A stretch of 44,926 nt of DNA from Desulfobacterales bacterium (GTDB taxonomy: Bacteria > Desulfobacterota > Desulfobacteria > Desulfobacterales > JAHEIW01). The notes beneath the pieces were generated by a model. It saw only the letters and a program-made list of their open reading frames with translations, did not search any database and had not been told where the DNA came from. The stretch spans positions 1-44,926 of the forward strand of contig JASJAN010000027.1 of NCBI GenBank assembly GCA_030066985.1, read 5' to 3'. Made by a program: the position numbers and the translations under genes. Below are positions 1-3,355 of the stretch, piece by piece. Numbering within the stretch: the first letter of the stretch is position 1; each line of letters begins with the position of its first letter.

Positions 1-1261
1 TATTGTTCATTGTTGCGAAGATTTCCCAAAACATATTGGTCTGCCGAGGGGGTGTCTTGAAGACACGACTGCTTTGCTCGATTCTTTGGGAATCCGCCCA
101 AAAATAGTTGACGAGAGGTTCGAAGGCGAGCGAGTAAAAGCTGAATTTAAGGGTAGGCTAAGGTCAGAACAGCAAAAAGCAGCTGGTGCTCTTCTGGAGT
201 ACGATACCGGTGTGTTGGCAGCATCGACCGCATTTGGGAAAACTGTAGTCGCAGCTTATTTAATTGCAAAGCGATATGTAAACACTTTGATCCTGGTTCA
301 TTTAAAAGAGCTTCTGCATCAGTGGATCGCACGATTGAATTCTTTTCTCGATGTCTCTGCGAGTGATATTGGGCAAATCGGCGGCGGAAAACGTAAGCCA
401 ACCGGCATAATAGATGTCGCAACAATTCAGAGCTTAGGACGAAAGGGAGTGGTAGATGATATTGTGGCTAAATACGGCTATCTAATTGTGGACGAATGCC
501 ATCATATTTCCGCCAGAAGCTTTGAAATCGTTGCCCGACAGTGCAAAGCGAAATACGTTACTGGACTTTCAGCGACAGTTACCAGAAAAGATGGTCACCA
601 TCCAATTATTTTTATGAATTGTGGACCGGTTAGGTACAAAGTAGATGATAAGAAACAGGCGTCAGAAAGACCTTTTGCCCATAAAGTTATTGTCAGAGAA
701 ACGAGCTTTAGGATGCCTGCTTCATTTGAGGCAGATCGGTATACTGCTATCCACGAAATTTATAGAGCCTTATTACAAAGCGATGAGCGCAATCAAGTCA
801 TCGTCTCCGATGTAATGAACGCCATTAAAAAAAATCGTTTCCCAGTTATCCTGACCGAACGTGTTGAGCATCTTGAAACTCTAAAAGGCCTACTTGAAAA
901 CAAAATTACAAATCTAATAGTCATGAAAGGTGGAATGGGTAAAAAGCAGCGGCAGAAAGCATTAAACGCACTTAATTCTCTTCCCGATGATGCTGAAAAA
1001 GCGGTCCTTGCTACAGGTCGGTACTTAGGGGAAGGATTCGATGACGAAAGGCTTGATACTTTATTTTTGACTCTGCCAATTTCCTGGAGAGGTACTCTAA
1101 ATCAATATGCCGGTCGATTGCACAGAATCCACGACACCAAAAAAAAAGTGGTGATTTACGATTACGCGGATCTGGAAGTACCGGTCTTGGTAAGGATGTA
1201 CGATAGGCGACTGAGAGGTTATCGATCAATAGGATATGAAATCGAAGACGATCTCGCTTGA
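1..1261 (+). CDS. TOTE-type conflict system primase-helicase, C-terminal helicase part (5' truncated by window edge)
   Basis: The frame is open from base 2, and the residues before the first internal start (TTG at 74) fit the family, so this is the 3' part of a longer gene. Counting from 74, SF2 helicase motifs appear in order: Walker A STAFGKT (51-57), DECHH (140-144), SAT (166-168), a motif V region ATGRYLGEGFDD (313-324) and motif VI QYAGRLHR (344-351). The segment just before the helicase (EDFPKHIGLPRGCLED) and the block GQIGGGKRKPTG match what I recall of proteins annotated as TOTE conflict system primase/helicase, which join an archaeo-eukaryotic primase to this helicase. The primase itself would lie outside the window. 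The family is thought to act in defence against invasive DNA. Its position beside a tRNA integration site suggests mobile-island cargo. Helicase identity is near certain; the TOTE assignment is from memory of family sequences. Confidence 0.82.
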   Translation, partial: IVHCCEDFPKHIGLPRGCLEDTTALLDSLGIRPKIVDERFEGERVKAEFKGRLRSEQQKAAGALLEYDTGVLAASTAFGKTVVAAYLIAKRYVNTLILVHLKELLHQWIARLNSFLDVSASDIGQIGGGKRKPTGIIDVATIQSLGRKGVVDDIVAKYGYLIVDECHHISARSFEIVARQCKAKYVTGLSATVTRKDGHHPIIFMNCGPVRYKVDDKKQASERPFAHKVIVRETSFRMPASFEADRYTAIHEIYRALLQSDERNQVIVSDVMNAIKKNRFPVILTERVEHLETLKGLLENKITNLIVMKGGMGKKQRQKALNALNSLPDDAEKAVLATGRYLGEGFDDERLDTLFLTLPISWRGTLNQYAGRLHRIHDTKKKVVIYDYADLEVPVLVRMYDRRLRGYRSIGYEIEDDLA

Positions 1262-1324
1262 TGCGGGTTGCTAATCCGTGTAGGTTGTACGAAAACAAAT
1301 GCCAGTTTGCATATTTTTGCATAT

Positions 1325-1372
1325 AAAAGAGAAACAGCTCCTGTAACTTACTGAAACCGTTTCTCTTTTTTT
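1325..1372 (+). terminator. Rho-independent terminator after the helicase gene
   Basis: AAAAGAGAAAC (1325-1335) pairs perfectly with GTTTCTCTTTT (1359-1369) across a 23-base loop, and the right arm runs into a T tract. It lies about 65 bases after the helicase stop codon. The A-rich left arm means it could also stop minus-strand transcription. Confidence 0.7.
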
Positions 1373-1380
1373 AATGGTAT

Positions 1381-1405
1381 GCCGAAGGCCGGACTTGAAC
1401 CTGCA
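1381..1405 (-). repeat. Partial tRNA-Leu 3' end, putative att site copy
   Basis: Bases 1381-1401 (21 nt) are identical to 1890-1910, the T-arm and 3' acceptor strand of the intact tRNA-Leu. After one mismatch the next bases (GCAC) match again. The rest of the tRNA is absent, so this is not a functional tRNA. Duplication of a tRNA 3' end is the usual trace of tyrosine-recombinase integration. Confidence 0.75.
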
Positions 1406-1438
1406 CCAACCCGCTATTGGCGCGGGTTTGCGGTCACT

Positions 1439-1456
1439 GTGGACGAGTAGTGGACG
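1439..1456. repeat. Direct repeat pair GTGGAC-N5-GTGGACG (left), possible integrase arm site
   Basis: GTGGAC at 1439-1444 and GTGGACG at 1450-1456 are in direct orientation with an 11-base period, about one helical turn. The same arrangement recurs at 1753-1770. Position 38 bases inside the att-like copy fits an arm-type binding site for a tyrosine recombinase. The function is inferred. Confidence 0.5.
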
Positions 1457-1461
1457 AATGT

Positions 1462-1722
1462 TCAATTTTCTGATTTAATTCCTTTTGACTTATCTTCTTC
1501 ATCAAAAATGATATCTAAAAGATACATTAAGGATTCACCGTTATCACCATCGCCACCTCGTTTCCAACAGAAATAATCGTCGTTCCAAACAAAATCAACG
1601 TTCATTATTTTCTCCATCAGAGCTTCGCTTTTAGGATGATGGTCGATTCCATTTTCCCAACGCTTCTCAATGTCATATTCAACACCTTCAACTTTTGGGT
1701 ATTTTTCTTTTTCTAAAATCAT
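1462..1722 (-). CDS. Small acidic hypothetical protein, 86 aa
   Basis: I do not recognise this protein. It is 86 residues, clearly acidic (roughly 22 Asp/Glu against 12 Lys/Arg), with no membrane segment or signal peptide, and with aromatic residues in its middle (FVWNDDYFCW). A purine-rich GGAGAAAGGAG directly upstream of the ATG supports translation. It is the only ORF of note between the two tRNA-Leu 3'-end copies and is bracketed by the GTGGAC repeats, so it is probably element cargo. Small acidic cargo proteins are sometimes DNA mimics or immunity-type proteins, but nothing here shows that specifically. Confidence 0.55.
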   Translation of the reverse strand: MILEKEKYPKVEGVEYDIEKRWENGIDHHPKSEALMEKIMNVDFVWNDDYFCWKRGGDGDNGESLMYLLDIIFDEEDKSKGIKSEN

Positions 1723-1752
1723 CTCCTTTCTCCGAAATAGTTAACTATTTAT

Positions 1753-1770
1753 GTGGACATAAAGTGGACG
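1753..1770. repeat. Direct repeat pair GTGGAC-N5-GTGGACG (right), possible integrase arm site
   Basis: GTGGAC at 1753-1758 and GTGGACG at 1764-1770 have the same orientation and 5-base spacer length as the pair at 1439-1456. It lies about 120 bases inside the tRNA-Leu att copy. The role as an integrase arm site is inferred. Confidence 0.5.
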
Positions 1771-1821
1771 TTTTTACCTCACCAAAAAAAATCCTCTAAC
1801 CACCTGAAATTTTTACCAAAT

Positions 1822-1872
1822 AAAAACAGGCACCCACGTCATTCCTGAACCTTGACGTAAGTACCTGTTTTT
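1822..1872 (-). terminator. Hairpin downstream of tRNA-Leu, probable terminator
   Basis: AAAAACAGG (1822-1830) and CCTGTTTTT (1864-1872) form a perfect outer stem, with a second inner pairing between ACGTCA (1836-1841) and TGACGT (1853-1858). On the minus strand the structure ends in a T run just after the tRNA 3' end. It lies inside the putative element, so it may have arrived with it. Confidence 0.6.
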
Positions 1873-1885
1873 GCGTGTAAAACTA

Positions 1886-1972
1886 TGGTGCCGAAGGCCG
1901 GACTTGAACCGGCACGGGCGTAGCCCACTACCCCCTCAAGATAGCGTGTCTACCAAGTTCCACCACTTCGGC
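1886..1972 (-). tRNA. tRNA-Leu(GAG)
   Basis: Read on the minus strand, an 87-nt tRNA starts GCCGAAGTGG and ends with an encoded CCA. The acceptor strands GCCGAAG and CTTCGGC pair. The anticodon stem is CTATC/GGTAG with loop TTGAGGG, giving anticodon GAG. The long variable arm and the T-arm sequence GGTTCAAGTCC are typical of class II tRNA-Leu. It lies 33 bases after secG, the same neighbourhood as E. coli secG-leuU, also a Leu(GAG) tRNA. Its 3' end is duplicated at 1381-1401, marking it as an integration target. Confidence 0.95.
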
Positions 1973-2005
1973 TCGTGAATCAACGAATGAAGTTTATAGC
2001 ACAGT

Positions 2006-2413
2006 TTATTCTGATTGCGCCGGTTTGGCCGGTGCCTCGCTCTGCTGCGGAGCGGTCTGCTCTTGAGCTGCCGGTGCAGACGGGGCCGGAGTCGAACTTT
2101 CCTGGGGTGCCGTCTCGCTCGGGGCCGCTGGTGCCGTCTGCTCTACCGGAGCGGGTATTTGGGGCATGATCGAGTCGGCCGTGCGATGGCTGGACATGTA
2201 TGCCAGTACCAGGGATGTCAGCATAAACACAATGGCCGCTACGGTGGTGGCCTTACTTAAAAAGGTTGAGGCCCCAGTACTGCCAAACAGGGTTTGACTT
2301 CCGCCGCCGCCAAAGGCAGCACCCATATCAGCGCCCTTTCCGGTTTGAAGCAACACAATCATAATCAGGGCAATACATACGGCTACATGAACGATGACGA
2401 GTATTATTGACAT
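2006..2413 (-). CDS. secG: Protein-export membrane protein SecG
   Basis: SecG is the small accessory subunit of the SecYEG translocon in the inner membrane. The first ~75 residues are classic: a first helix (IILVIVHVAVCIALIMIVLL), the cytoplasmic loop with QTGKGADMGAAFGGGGSQTLFGS, then a second helix ending LTSLVLAYM. After residue ~78 comes a tail of about 55 residues made almost wholly of Ala, Pro, Glu, Gln, Ser and Thr. This low-complexity extension makes the protein longer than the ~75-110 residues usual for the family. A GGGAC ribosome site precedes the ATG. It sits between tpiA and tRNA-Leu, a common arrangement in proteobacteria. Confidence 0.93.
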   Translation of the reverse strand: MSIILVIVHVAVCIALIMIVLLQTGKGADMGAAFGGGGSQTLFGSTGASTFLSKATTVAAIVFMLTSLVLAYMSSHRTADSIMPQIPAPVEQTAPAAPSETAPQESSTPAPSAPAAQEQTAPQQSEAPAKPAQSE

Positions 2414-2487
2414 TTTTTTATTTGTCCCTACAAAAAAATCTAACGCTGAATGGCATTAGTGTATATTAACCTAAAATACATATTTTT

Positions 2488-2586
2488 TAAAGGTTGAGCC
2501 CTTTACCCCGTTACCGGTAGATTTATTGCAATCGGATTTTTTTTCCAATTTTAACGGGCTCAACGGGCTTAACCGGCACAACCGGC
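2488..2586. repeat. Intergenic word repeats of the AACGGGCTcAACGGG type
   Basis: Between tpiA and secG, variants of AACGGGCT and AACCGGC repeat on the right side (2553-2586), and an inverted version (GGTTGAGCCC...CCCCGTTACCGG) lies to the left at 2491-2517. The same words recur at 37371-37401, upstream of guaB. Role unknown. Confidence 0.5.
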
Positions 2587-2596
2587 CAACCAAATA

Positions 2597-3355
2597 TTAT
2601 TTAAATTTGACAATCTGGCTGAACGATTCGGCGTCAAGACTGGCGCCGCCCACCAGGGCGCCGTCAATGTCCGGCATTTCCATCAGACCGGCAATGTTAT
2701 CCGGCTTGACACTGCCGCCATACAAAATCCGCATGGATTCAGACAGCCCATTGCCGTAAAGTTTTTCCACCAATGAGCGGATGAACTGATGCACATCCTG
2801 GGCCTGGTCATCGGTTGCTGTTTTGCCGGTTCCGATGGCCCAAACCGGTTCATAGGCAATGACCAGCGTATCCAGGTCTTCTGAAACCAACCCTTCTAAC
2901 CCTTTTTGAACCTGTTTGTCAAGCACGGAAAAGGTTTGTTCGGCCTCACGCTCTTTTTCGGTTTCTCCCACACAAAAGACCGGAATCAGCTCTGCCTCAA
3001 TAGCCGCCCGTATTTTTTTGTTAACGGTCTGATCAGTCTCAGCGAAATACTGCCTGCGCTCGGAATGGCCGATGATACAATAGGTGCATCCCACAGCTTT
3101 TAGCATGGAAGCTGATATTTCGCCGGTATAGGCGCCCTCGGTTTCCCAGAATAGATTTTGTGCACCGAGCGCCACCGGTCCCTTGTAGGTGACAGCACTC
3201 ACCGCGGCAAGGGCGGTGTAGGTTGGGGCAATCATGATGTCGACATCAGCCACTGAACCCACGCGCAGATCCAGTTCCTGCGCGGTTTCAGCGGCTTCTT
3301 TCGGCGTTTTATACATTTTCCAGTTTCCCGCTATCAGCGGTCTTCGTTTCGCCAT
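2597..3355 (-). CDS. tpiA: Triosephosphate isomerase
   Basis: This cytoplasmic glycolytic and gluconeogenic enzyme interconverts dihydroxyacetone phosphate and glyceraldehyde 3-phosphate. At 252 residues it has the normal length. Visible active-site elements are the substrate-binding lysine in GNWKMYK (K13), the electrophilic histidine in IIGHSERR, the catalytic glutamate in AYEPVWAIGTGK (which also begins loop 6), and the phosphate-binding GGSVKPDN and GALVGGASL near the C terminus. An AAAGG ribosome site precedes the ATG. It follows gap on the same strand after a ~310-base gap containing inverted repeats, so the two glycolytic genes are adjacent but may be separately transcribed. Confidence 0.97.
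   Translation of the reverse strand: MAKRRPLIAGNWKMYKTPKEAAETAQELDLRVGSVADVDIMIAPTYTALAAVSAVTYKGPVALGAQNLFWETEGAYTGEISASMLKAVGCTYCIIGHSERRQYFAETDQTVNKKIRAAIEAELIPVFCVGETEKEREAEQTFSVLDKQVQKGLEGLVSEDLDTLVIAYEPVWAIGTGKTATDDQAQDVHQFIRSLVEKLYGNGLSESMRILYGGSVKPDNIAGLMEMPDIDGALVGGASLDAESFSQIVKFK

Follow-up and report, generated by a model that had tools for sequence, protein, structure and literature searches.

The window, by which the whole analysed stretch of 44,926 nucleotides is meant, comprises C27:1-44926, and its first base is base 1 of contig C27. A stop-free frame of 419 amino acids on the plus strand (2..1261) enters from the contig end, as the initial annotation had stated, and was assigned to the C-terminal part of an AEP-TOTE primase-helicase whose 5' end lies beyond the contig. 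The fragment matches the Pfam families ResIII (E = 1.2e-21), DEAD (1.5e-11) and Helicase_C (6.1e-6) well past chance, and the NCBIfam XPB and RadD models match it far under their cut-offs. All four SF2 motifs quoted in the initial annotation were recovered from the sequence: motif I (Walker A, ASTAFGKT, 221..244, with 7 of its 8 residues unchanged across 17 relatives), motif II (DECHH, 491..505, DECH invariant in the 17 relatives), motif III (SAT, 569..577) and motif VI (QYAGRLHR, 1103..1126, 7 of 8 residues invariant), all on the plus strand. The fragment carries an XPB/UvsW-like SF2 helicase, and this C-terminal half with motifs I, II, III and VI has the composition looked for in an AEP-TOTE primase-helicase. 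Judged against the complete relative L013, approximately 400 amino acids are absent from the window copy. The gene is cut by the contig end, no PF22548 match to its primase half was found in the own genome (81 contigs, 5.07 Mb, 97.8% complete), and the first 200 bases of the window have no other convincing match in that genome (next best E = 0.07). The fragment is identical to L012 in 86.8% of its residues and to L012 and L013 in 81-82% of its bases; since the protein is better conserved than the DNA, it fits a gene under selection.

Relatives were collected in one scan of a species-level genome collection, which yielded 36 loci. Two of them within the Desulfobacterales (L012 and L013) are 87% identical to the fragment; L012 is cut at its contig end, and L013 is complete, with 400 of its 819 amino acids located ahead of the part shared with the window. 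Residue 1 of the fragment aligns at approximately residue 401 of L013, and the frame continues upstream in both relatives. The L013 protein contains the Pfam domain AEP-TOTE at residues 65-303 (E = 4.7e-98) with the helicase behind it, and PF22548 precedes the helicase in six out of eight proteins scanned (L013, L014, L016, L020, L038 and L041, E between 8e-89 and 2e-102). These six are the proteins that align along the fragment's own family. The two proteins that lack PF22548 (L044 and a protein encoded on contig C60 of the own genome) belong to a stand-alone helicase family that is 35% identical to the fragment. The C60 protein (L003 5473-6837, minus strand, 454 amino acids, XPB/RadD-like) is followed by a 244-amino-acid ORF, and L038 carries an additional NO VEIN C-terminal domain. 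Residues D167, D169, H203 and D241 of L013, which we take to be the AEP motifs, are invariant in all 17 aligned full-length relatives; helicase motifs I, II and VI are likewise invariant at most positions. A profile search of the PDB returned archaeal XPBII (6p4f, E = 1.1e-23) and 7nqd (E = 2.5e-21, listed as a TPR_REGION protein), the latter presumably the solved AEP of a CRISPR-associated Prim-Pol. A structure model of L013 (17 rows, mean pLDDT 71, pTM 0.48) ranked XPB and UvsW first in Foldseek; because the TM-scores were 0.2-0.4, structural kinship was based on the PDB sequence matches. In a phylum sample, 100 out of 395 genomes contain AEP-TOTE matches over the Pfam cut-off, and at least 43 of the matches listed are strong (E of 5e-81 or better). 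The full-length relatives carry AEP-TOTE before the helicase and the initial annotation had therefore named the family correctly. These data support the view that the fragment is the C-terminal, SF2 helicase half of an AEP-TOTE primase-helicase, the primase half of which would lie beyond the contig end.

Downstream of the gene lies a tRNA-Leu(gag) gene (1886..1972, minus strand) with its 3' end facing the TOTE gene, followed on the same strand by two conserved neighbors that presumably encode SecG (2006..2413) and triose-phosphate isomerase (2597..3355), with GAPDH presumably the next gene. A copy of the tRNA-Leu 3' end that is exact over 22 out of 22 nucleotides is present at 1380..1401 (26 out of 27 when extended to 1406) and represents the right att copy of the TOTE element, so that the tRNA integration site proposed in the initial annotation was right in substance. 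Two TTGCATAT direct repeats, 10 bp apart on the plus strand (1307..1324), mark the right end of the element as candidate arm sites for an integrase, and a terminator-like hairpin (AGAGAAAC/GTTTCTCT) with a T run, identified by eye, is located between the gene and the att copy (1328..1372) and is partly conserved with L013. A second small insertion with a period of 509 bp occupies the space between the two tRNA 3'-end copies (1402..1888); the tRNA is the target of both insertions. It contains an 86-amino-acid ORF without a Pfam match (1462..1722, minus strand) and, on the plus strand, two GTGGAC pairs with 11-bp spacing, one near its left end (1439..1455) and one near the tRNA end (1753..1769). 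No match to this insertion was found in the other 388 of the 389 genomes of the order sample. The window and L013 are homologous in their DNA past the end of the gene and across the hairpin and core as far as position 1406; homology then breaks off and resumes at position 1883 at the tRNA. The TOTE element, whose left end and cargo would lie off the contig, appears to have inserted first and the 509-bp insertion later into the same tRNA.

The TOTE gene is found beside tRNA-Leu(gag) with the same neighbors in the window and in L012, L013, L020 and L034 (G006). For comparison, the corresponding site was inspected in 20 relatives that were picked by the authors from 56 genomes with a tpiA match. 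The tRNA-Leu(gag) gene was found at 19 of these 20 sites and the TOTE gene at none of them, with 16 sites showing more than 3 kb on the gene side and four less than 3 kb on that informative side; one site (L087/L151) is occupied by a unit that lacks a TOTE gene. The gene is absent from all 20 sites and was therefore classified as an insertion and not as an ancestral neighbor. The TOTE protein of the window is 86.8% identical to that of L012, as against 68.6-80.3% for five flanking housekeeping proteins, an excess that is expected for horizontal transfer. There is no such excess relative to L034 (66.1% for the TOTE protein, 34.5-76.3% for ten other proteins). A tree built from 44 helicase parts groups the window with L013 (support 99/92) and L012 (100/100); L034 falls within the next starred set and L020 is placed elsewhere. 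The five tRNA-Leu copies need two changes on this tree, not one; they may nevertheless have a single origin, though L020 stands apart.

Copies of the tRNA 3' end flank the gene and its cargo as direct repeats in L013, L020 and L034 (17, 20 and 21 nucleotides, respectively), delimiting units of 3780, 4698 and 4417 bp, all within the 3' end of tRNA-Leu(gag); in the window the right copy alone (1380-1401) is on the contig and the left copy is off it. Bounded units also occur at tRNA-Ser in L035 and L036 (repeats of 18 and 19 nucleotides, units of 4773 and 3922 bp) and at tRNA-Asp in L033 (repeat of 50 nucleotides, unit of 6512 bp). Of 85 loci listed, five were dropped as duplicates and one, L079, because its gene is in two pieces, and L137 yielded no gene; the close group comprises 27 of the 78 loci under a cut-off set by the authors, and L012-L036 were all found with the window protein as bait. 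A tRNA gene is located within 2 kb in 7 out of 27 close, 5 out of 51 distant and 1 out of 20 control loci, an enrichment over the control loci that was too weak, and tRNA proximity alone was dropped as the main evidence. Among the seven close loci that have a tRNA this near, six are bounded units and the remaining one, L012, lacks any sequence on the left side of the gene. Across the 12 TOTE loci in which a tRNA is located within 2 kb, its 3' end always faces the gene, and the same is true of the single control locus. Two flagged cases were not counted, a repeat in L070 that lies away from the tRNA 3' end and a tRNA-Glu copy in L041 on the wrong side, and no flanking repeat was present in the stretches examined for the four distant loci L114, L118, L121 and L127, each with a tRNA within 2 kb.

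The ends of the tRNA-Leu units share more than the core. Pairs similar to the TTGCATAT pair are located at element ends in L012, L013, L020 and L034, and L013, L020 and L034 have in common a left end of approximately 125 bp that aligns outside of genes with the arm block in a matching position; its layout is a tRNA core, approximately 100 bp, YGCATWATCGCATWT and, after another 10-11 bp, a further repeat. At the right ends, the repeat pair is present in the window, L012 and L020 (reverse strand) and a single copy in L013; the arm repeat was not seen at the right end of L034. Arm sites of tyrosine integrases have this appearance, with direct repeats that are spaced by one helical turn and adjoin a tRNA core. 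The exact arm block has five matches within 389 genomes of the order and its reversed control none; three matches (on the L013 contig and in L034 and L151) adjoin tRNA-Leu(gag) and two (L149 and L150) are on short contigs without a tRNA. A hairpin just outside the far core copy occurs in L013, L020, L150 and L151 (-13.6 to -18.3 kcal/mol) and in a weak form in L034 (-6.9 kcal/mol), and is read as the tRNA's own terminator that was shifted outward by the insertion. The match in L151 (G021, 1757-3293) belongs to a 1.5-kb unit at tRNA-Leu(gag) that has the same left end and a near copy of the core, and that encodes a Gp49-like toxin and lacks the TOTE gene. Since this unit has the same left end without the gene, the TOTE gene is not essential to such units. 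A search for the window element's own left end with that of L013 gave one clear match in the own genome, an isolated, degenerate copy at C73:10158-10291 (L157) which also has a hairpin outside it, as judged by eye; the 20 kb examined there contain neither a tRNA nor a TOTE gene. This copy was not taken as the partner end, given that its core is degenerate and that ordinary-looking chromosomal genes fill its inner side to the contig end; it may be a relic, or the other end of a larger island.

The integrase that the initial annotation suspected to the left of the window would lie beyond the contig end. No integrase was recognized inside the six bounded units (L013, L020 and L033-L036) in a scan that covered all but four ORFs of 66-108 amino acids. 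Integrase pieces were identified near three relatives: an N-terminal integrase domain approximately 0.5 kb behind the TOTE gene in L014 (8377-8730, minus strand) and a piece approximately 1.1 kb behind it in L027 (7042-7647, plus strand), both with no tRNA seen nearby, and a tyrosine-integrase C-terminal piece in L034 (4405-4737, PF00589 E = 7e-8) that abuts the outside of the left repeat. The own genome was searched for a helper integrase and contains eight PF00589 matches, the best five of which have neither arm repeats nor a GTGGAC pair within loci of 3.4-3.6 kb, and the arm-block search revealed no integrase-bearing carrier in the stretches fetched. Two relatives on annotated plasmids (L153 in Rhizobium and L154 in Sulfitobacter, approximately 54-56% identical) are located beside three tandem tyrosine recombinases; a third plasmid that was inspected carries no annotation. 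Given that no integrase was recognized in the six bounded relatives, the element was probably placed by an integrase that acts in trans.

The cargo changes from unit to unit. L013 carries HicA with a preceding small ORF (a weak DUF1902 match, HicB by position), L020 carries DUF4062 and HATPase_c_4, L034 AbiEi/AbiEii, L035 SLFN_AlbA_2, L036 ParE and Phd, and L033 AbiEi/AbiEii and a SWIM protein; L013, L020 and L034 thus each contain one toxin-antitoxin or defense-like operon. A set of 87 neighbors from 26 close loci was assembled from two HicAB ORFs and 85 of 135 listed ORFs; the 85 were chosen by eye, passing over ORFs that were small and doubtful, long or of the housekeeping type. With seven members each, AbiEii and AbiEi_4 outnumber all other Pfam families in this set. 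A profile search identified AbiEii in 6 out of 78 TOTE loci (including L033, L034 and L041, from which the profile was built and which match by construction) and AbiE in none of 20 control loci. The AbiEi, AbiEii and TOTE genes are arranged head to tail, overlapping or nearly so, in L033 (5289-9281), L041 (5181-9239), L131 (TOTE frame open for 314 amino acids only) and L072 (short AbiEii ORF), which span at least three phyla, and AbiE is divergent from the TOTE gene in L034 and L042.

Two readings of the protein differ from the assignment made above. One holds that the fragment is a stand-alone repair helicase of the XPB/RadD type that never had a primase half, and draws on the presence of such a protein in the own genome (C60, 454 amino acids, 35% identical) and in most of 58 relatives. 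The 87% identity to L013 from approximately residue 401 onward, with the upstream frame continuing in L013 and L012, argues against this, as does the comparison of the two families: the stand-alone family is 35% identical and lacks an AEP domain, and all six of the fragment's own-family proteins scanned possess one. This reading is extremely improbable, and the outcome that would have contradicted the initial annotation, a protein without an AEP domain that groups with repair helicases, was not seen among the full-length relatives, the primase half of the window copy itself being absent from the contig. The other reading concerns the TOTE conflict systems, named for TPR, OB, TBP and Effector in a preprint that cites Aravind et al. 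2022 (PMC12458937), and makes the fragment the effector of a full system, the TPR-OB and TBP genes of which would be located in the part missing on the left. In its favor, PF22548 takes its name from these systems and the left side lies beyond the contig. The assembled part of the own genome, 97.8% complete, nevertheless contains no match to TBP (PF00352), a profile that was positive in four archaeal controls; no TPR-OB (cold-shock) or TBP gene occurs among the Pfam matches of the scanned genes of L013, L020 and L033-L036; and the 25 most frequent of the 103 Pfam families in the 87 neighbors include neither TBP nor TPR, which could be present among the 78 unlisted families. A full TOTE conflict system is thus very unlikely at this locus. 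The initial annotation holds as to the protein family (PF22548 in six of six own-family proteins scanned) and not as to membership in a TOTE conflict system, and with TBP absent and the neighbors of the relatives differing, the protein was filed under its domain family and the locus not under the TOTE systems.

Most probably, therefore, a compact mobile element occupies the 3' end of tRNA-Leu(gag), and at its right end, retained in the window, lies the helicase half of an AEP-TOTE primase-helicase. The window itself shows to which protein family the gene belongs, which site was targeted and that the tRNA end is duplicated; the relatives show that the ends are common, that the cargo changes and that no integrase is recognized. 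The window copy would also have a primase half, a left end and cargo. The tRNA 3'-end core and the direct repeats spaced 10-11 bp would serve as the recombination sites, at which an integrase supplied in trans may place the element in tRNA-Leu(gag). A competing explanation of the missing integrases, plausible if somewhat on the improbable side, is that these elements are not a class mobilized in trans and represent ordinary islands in decay, each of which lost its integrase and persists as an accretion remnant such as a CIME, in which integration genes are lost and attL/attR kept as described in PMC5704250. The tyrosine-integrase fragment outside the left att copy of L034, the integrase pieces behind the gene in L014 and L027 and the three tyrosine recombinases that adjoin the two annotated plasmid relatives all agree with such decay. 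Against it, the six bounded units from three phyla contain no recognized integrase and yet retain an uninterrupted gene of 818-844 amino acids and intact-looking cargo, and decay is expected to be less tidy than that. With regard to function, the domain families suggest that the XPB/UvsW-like motor would open DNA and that the N-terminal archaeo-eukaryotic primase would lay or extend primers on the exposed strand. Action on invading DNA, and not in host replication, is favored because toxin-antitoxin, AbiE or Schlafen-like partners are present in the same small element, and is given a chance that approaches even. It is preferred over a less probable role in which the primase-helicase replicates the excised, satellite-like minimal element and the toxin-antitoxin cargo merely stabilizes it. 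Replication would agree with the combination of primase and helicase in one chain, which is typical of replicative AEP enzymes (PMC7693054), with AEPs of another supergroup, many of which reside in mobile elements and 14 out of 25 mapped ones in tRNA genes (PMC5862659), and with the presence of the gene in three out of four bounded tRNA-Leu units (L013, L020 and L034, not L151) and in three tRNA-Ser/Asp units, all of these except L151 having been found with the gene as bait. The L151 unit with the same left end and no TOTE gene speaks against it, as does the Thermus element ICETh2, in which loss of Ppol, another AEP, left element replication unchanged (PMC7693054).

A broader and more speculative reading is rather unlikely. 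It proposes that minimal integrase-less elements hijack host or phage integrases to enter tRNA-Leu(gag) of sulfate reducers, that the primase-helicase is their usual core and forms one defense unit with the toxin, and that the elements are characterized by the left end of approximately 125 bp, paired arm sites and the exchange of single toxin-antitoxin or abortive-infection operons, repeatedly AbiE and sometimes head to tail. The role of primase-helicases in mobile elements is unsettled between defense and replication. One of the units measures 3.8 kb, has defined ends and a single partner operon, and could thus be cloned whole, which makes excision, the need for a helper and an anti-phage effect directly testable.

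Several known systems resemble parts of this element. The protein type is known: the N-terminal half of L013 matches both the Pfam AEP-TOTE family (PF22548), which is combined with an SF2 helicase, and the PADLOC PrimPol model PDLC01465 (E = 4.7e-98 and 1.8e-88, respectively). The helicase half of the AEP-TOTE proteins is common to the window, in which the N-terminal half is off the contig and partners of the TOTE system were not recognized. The third type of CAPP_A, a PrimPol catalytic domain followed by a helicase, has the same domain order as the relatives, and PrimPol-helicase is described as the most prevalent non-CRISPR CAPP architecture, with homologs that are typically found in mobile elements (PMC8211822). 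In contrast to CAPP, no Cas gene was recognized beside the TOTE relatives examined, and no Cas family is among the 25 commonest of the 103 families in the 87 neighbors. The Thermus element ICETh2 is similar in combining a primase and a helicase in a small element within a tRNA-Val 3' end flanked by direct repeats, with HicAB in some strains, and differs in having two genes, a DnaG-like helicase and its own integrase and excisionase (PMC7693054, PMC9751324). Every isolated Thermus ppol mutant also lost addAB function (PMC9751324), and the evidence for a defense role of Ppol in ICETh2 is for this reason soft.

Integrase-less elements flanked by att sites are also known. CIMEs (PMC5704250) and ssrA islands without an integration module (PMC3146451) are described as att-flanked and integrase-less with tandem insertions, as here, whereas in the present elements a common non-coding left end and a large gene recur and the cargo changes. 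Satellite-like defense elements at tRNA genes have direct repeats of 16-20 nucleotides, one of which is located in the tRNA 3' end, and likewise show sequential insertions and integrase fragments left behind; those among them that are called active encode integrases and HUH endonucleases and carry larger defense systems (PMC12458937). A literature search, with most subscription papers outside its scope, found no description of such a family of primase-helicase elements at tRNA genes. Protein type and integrase-less att-flanked architecture each have precedents, and it is their combination with common ends and changing toxin-antitoxin cargo that looks new.
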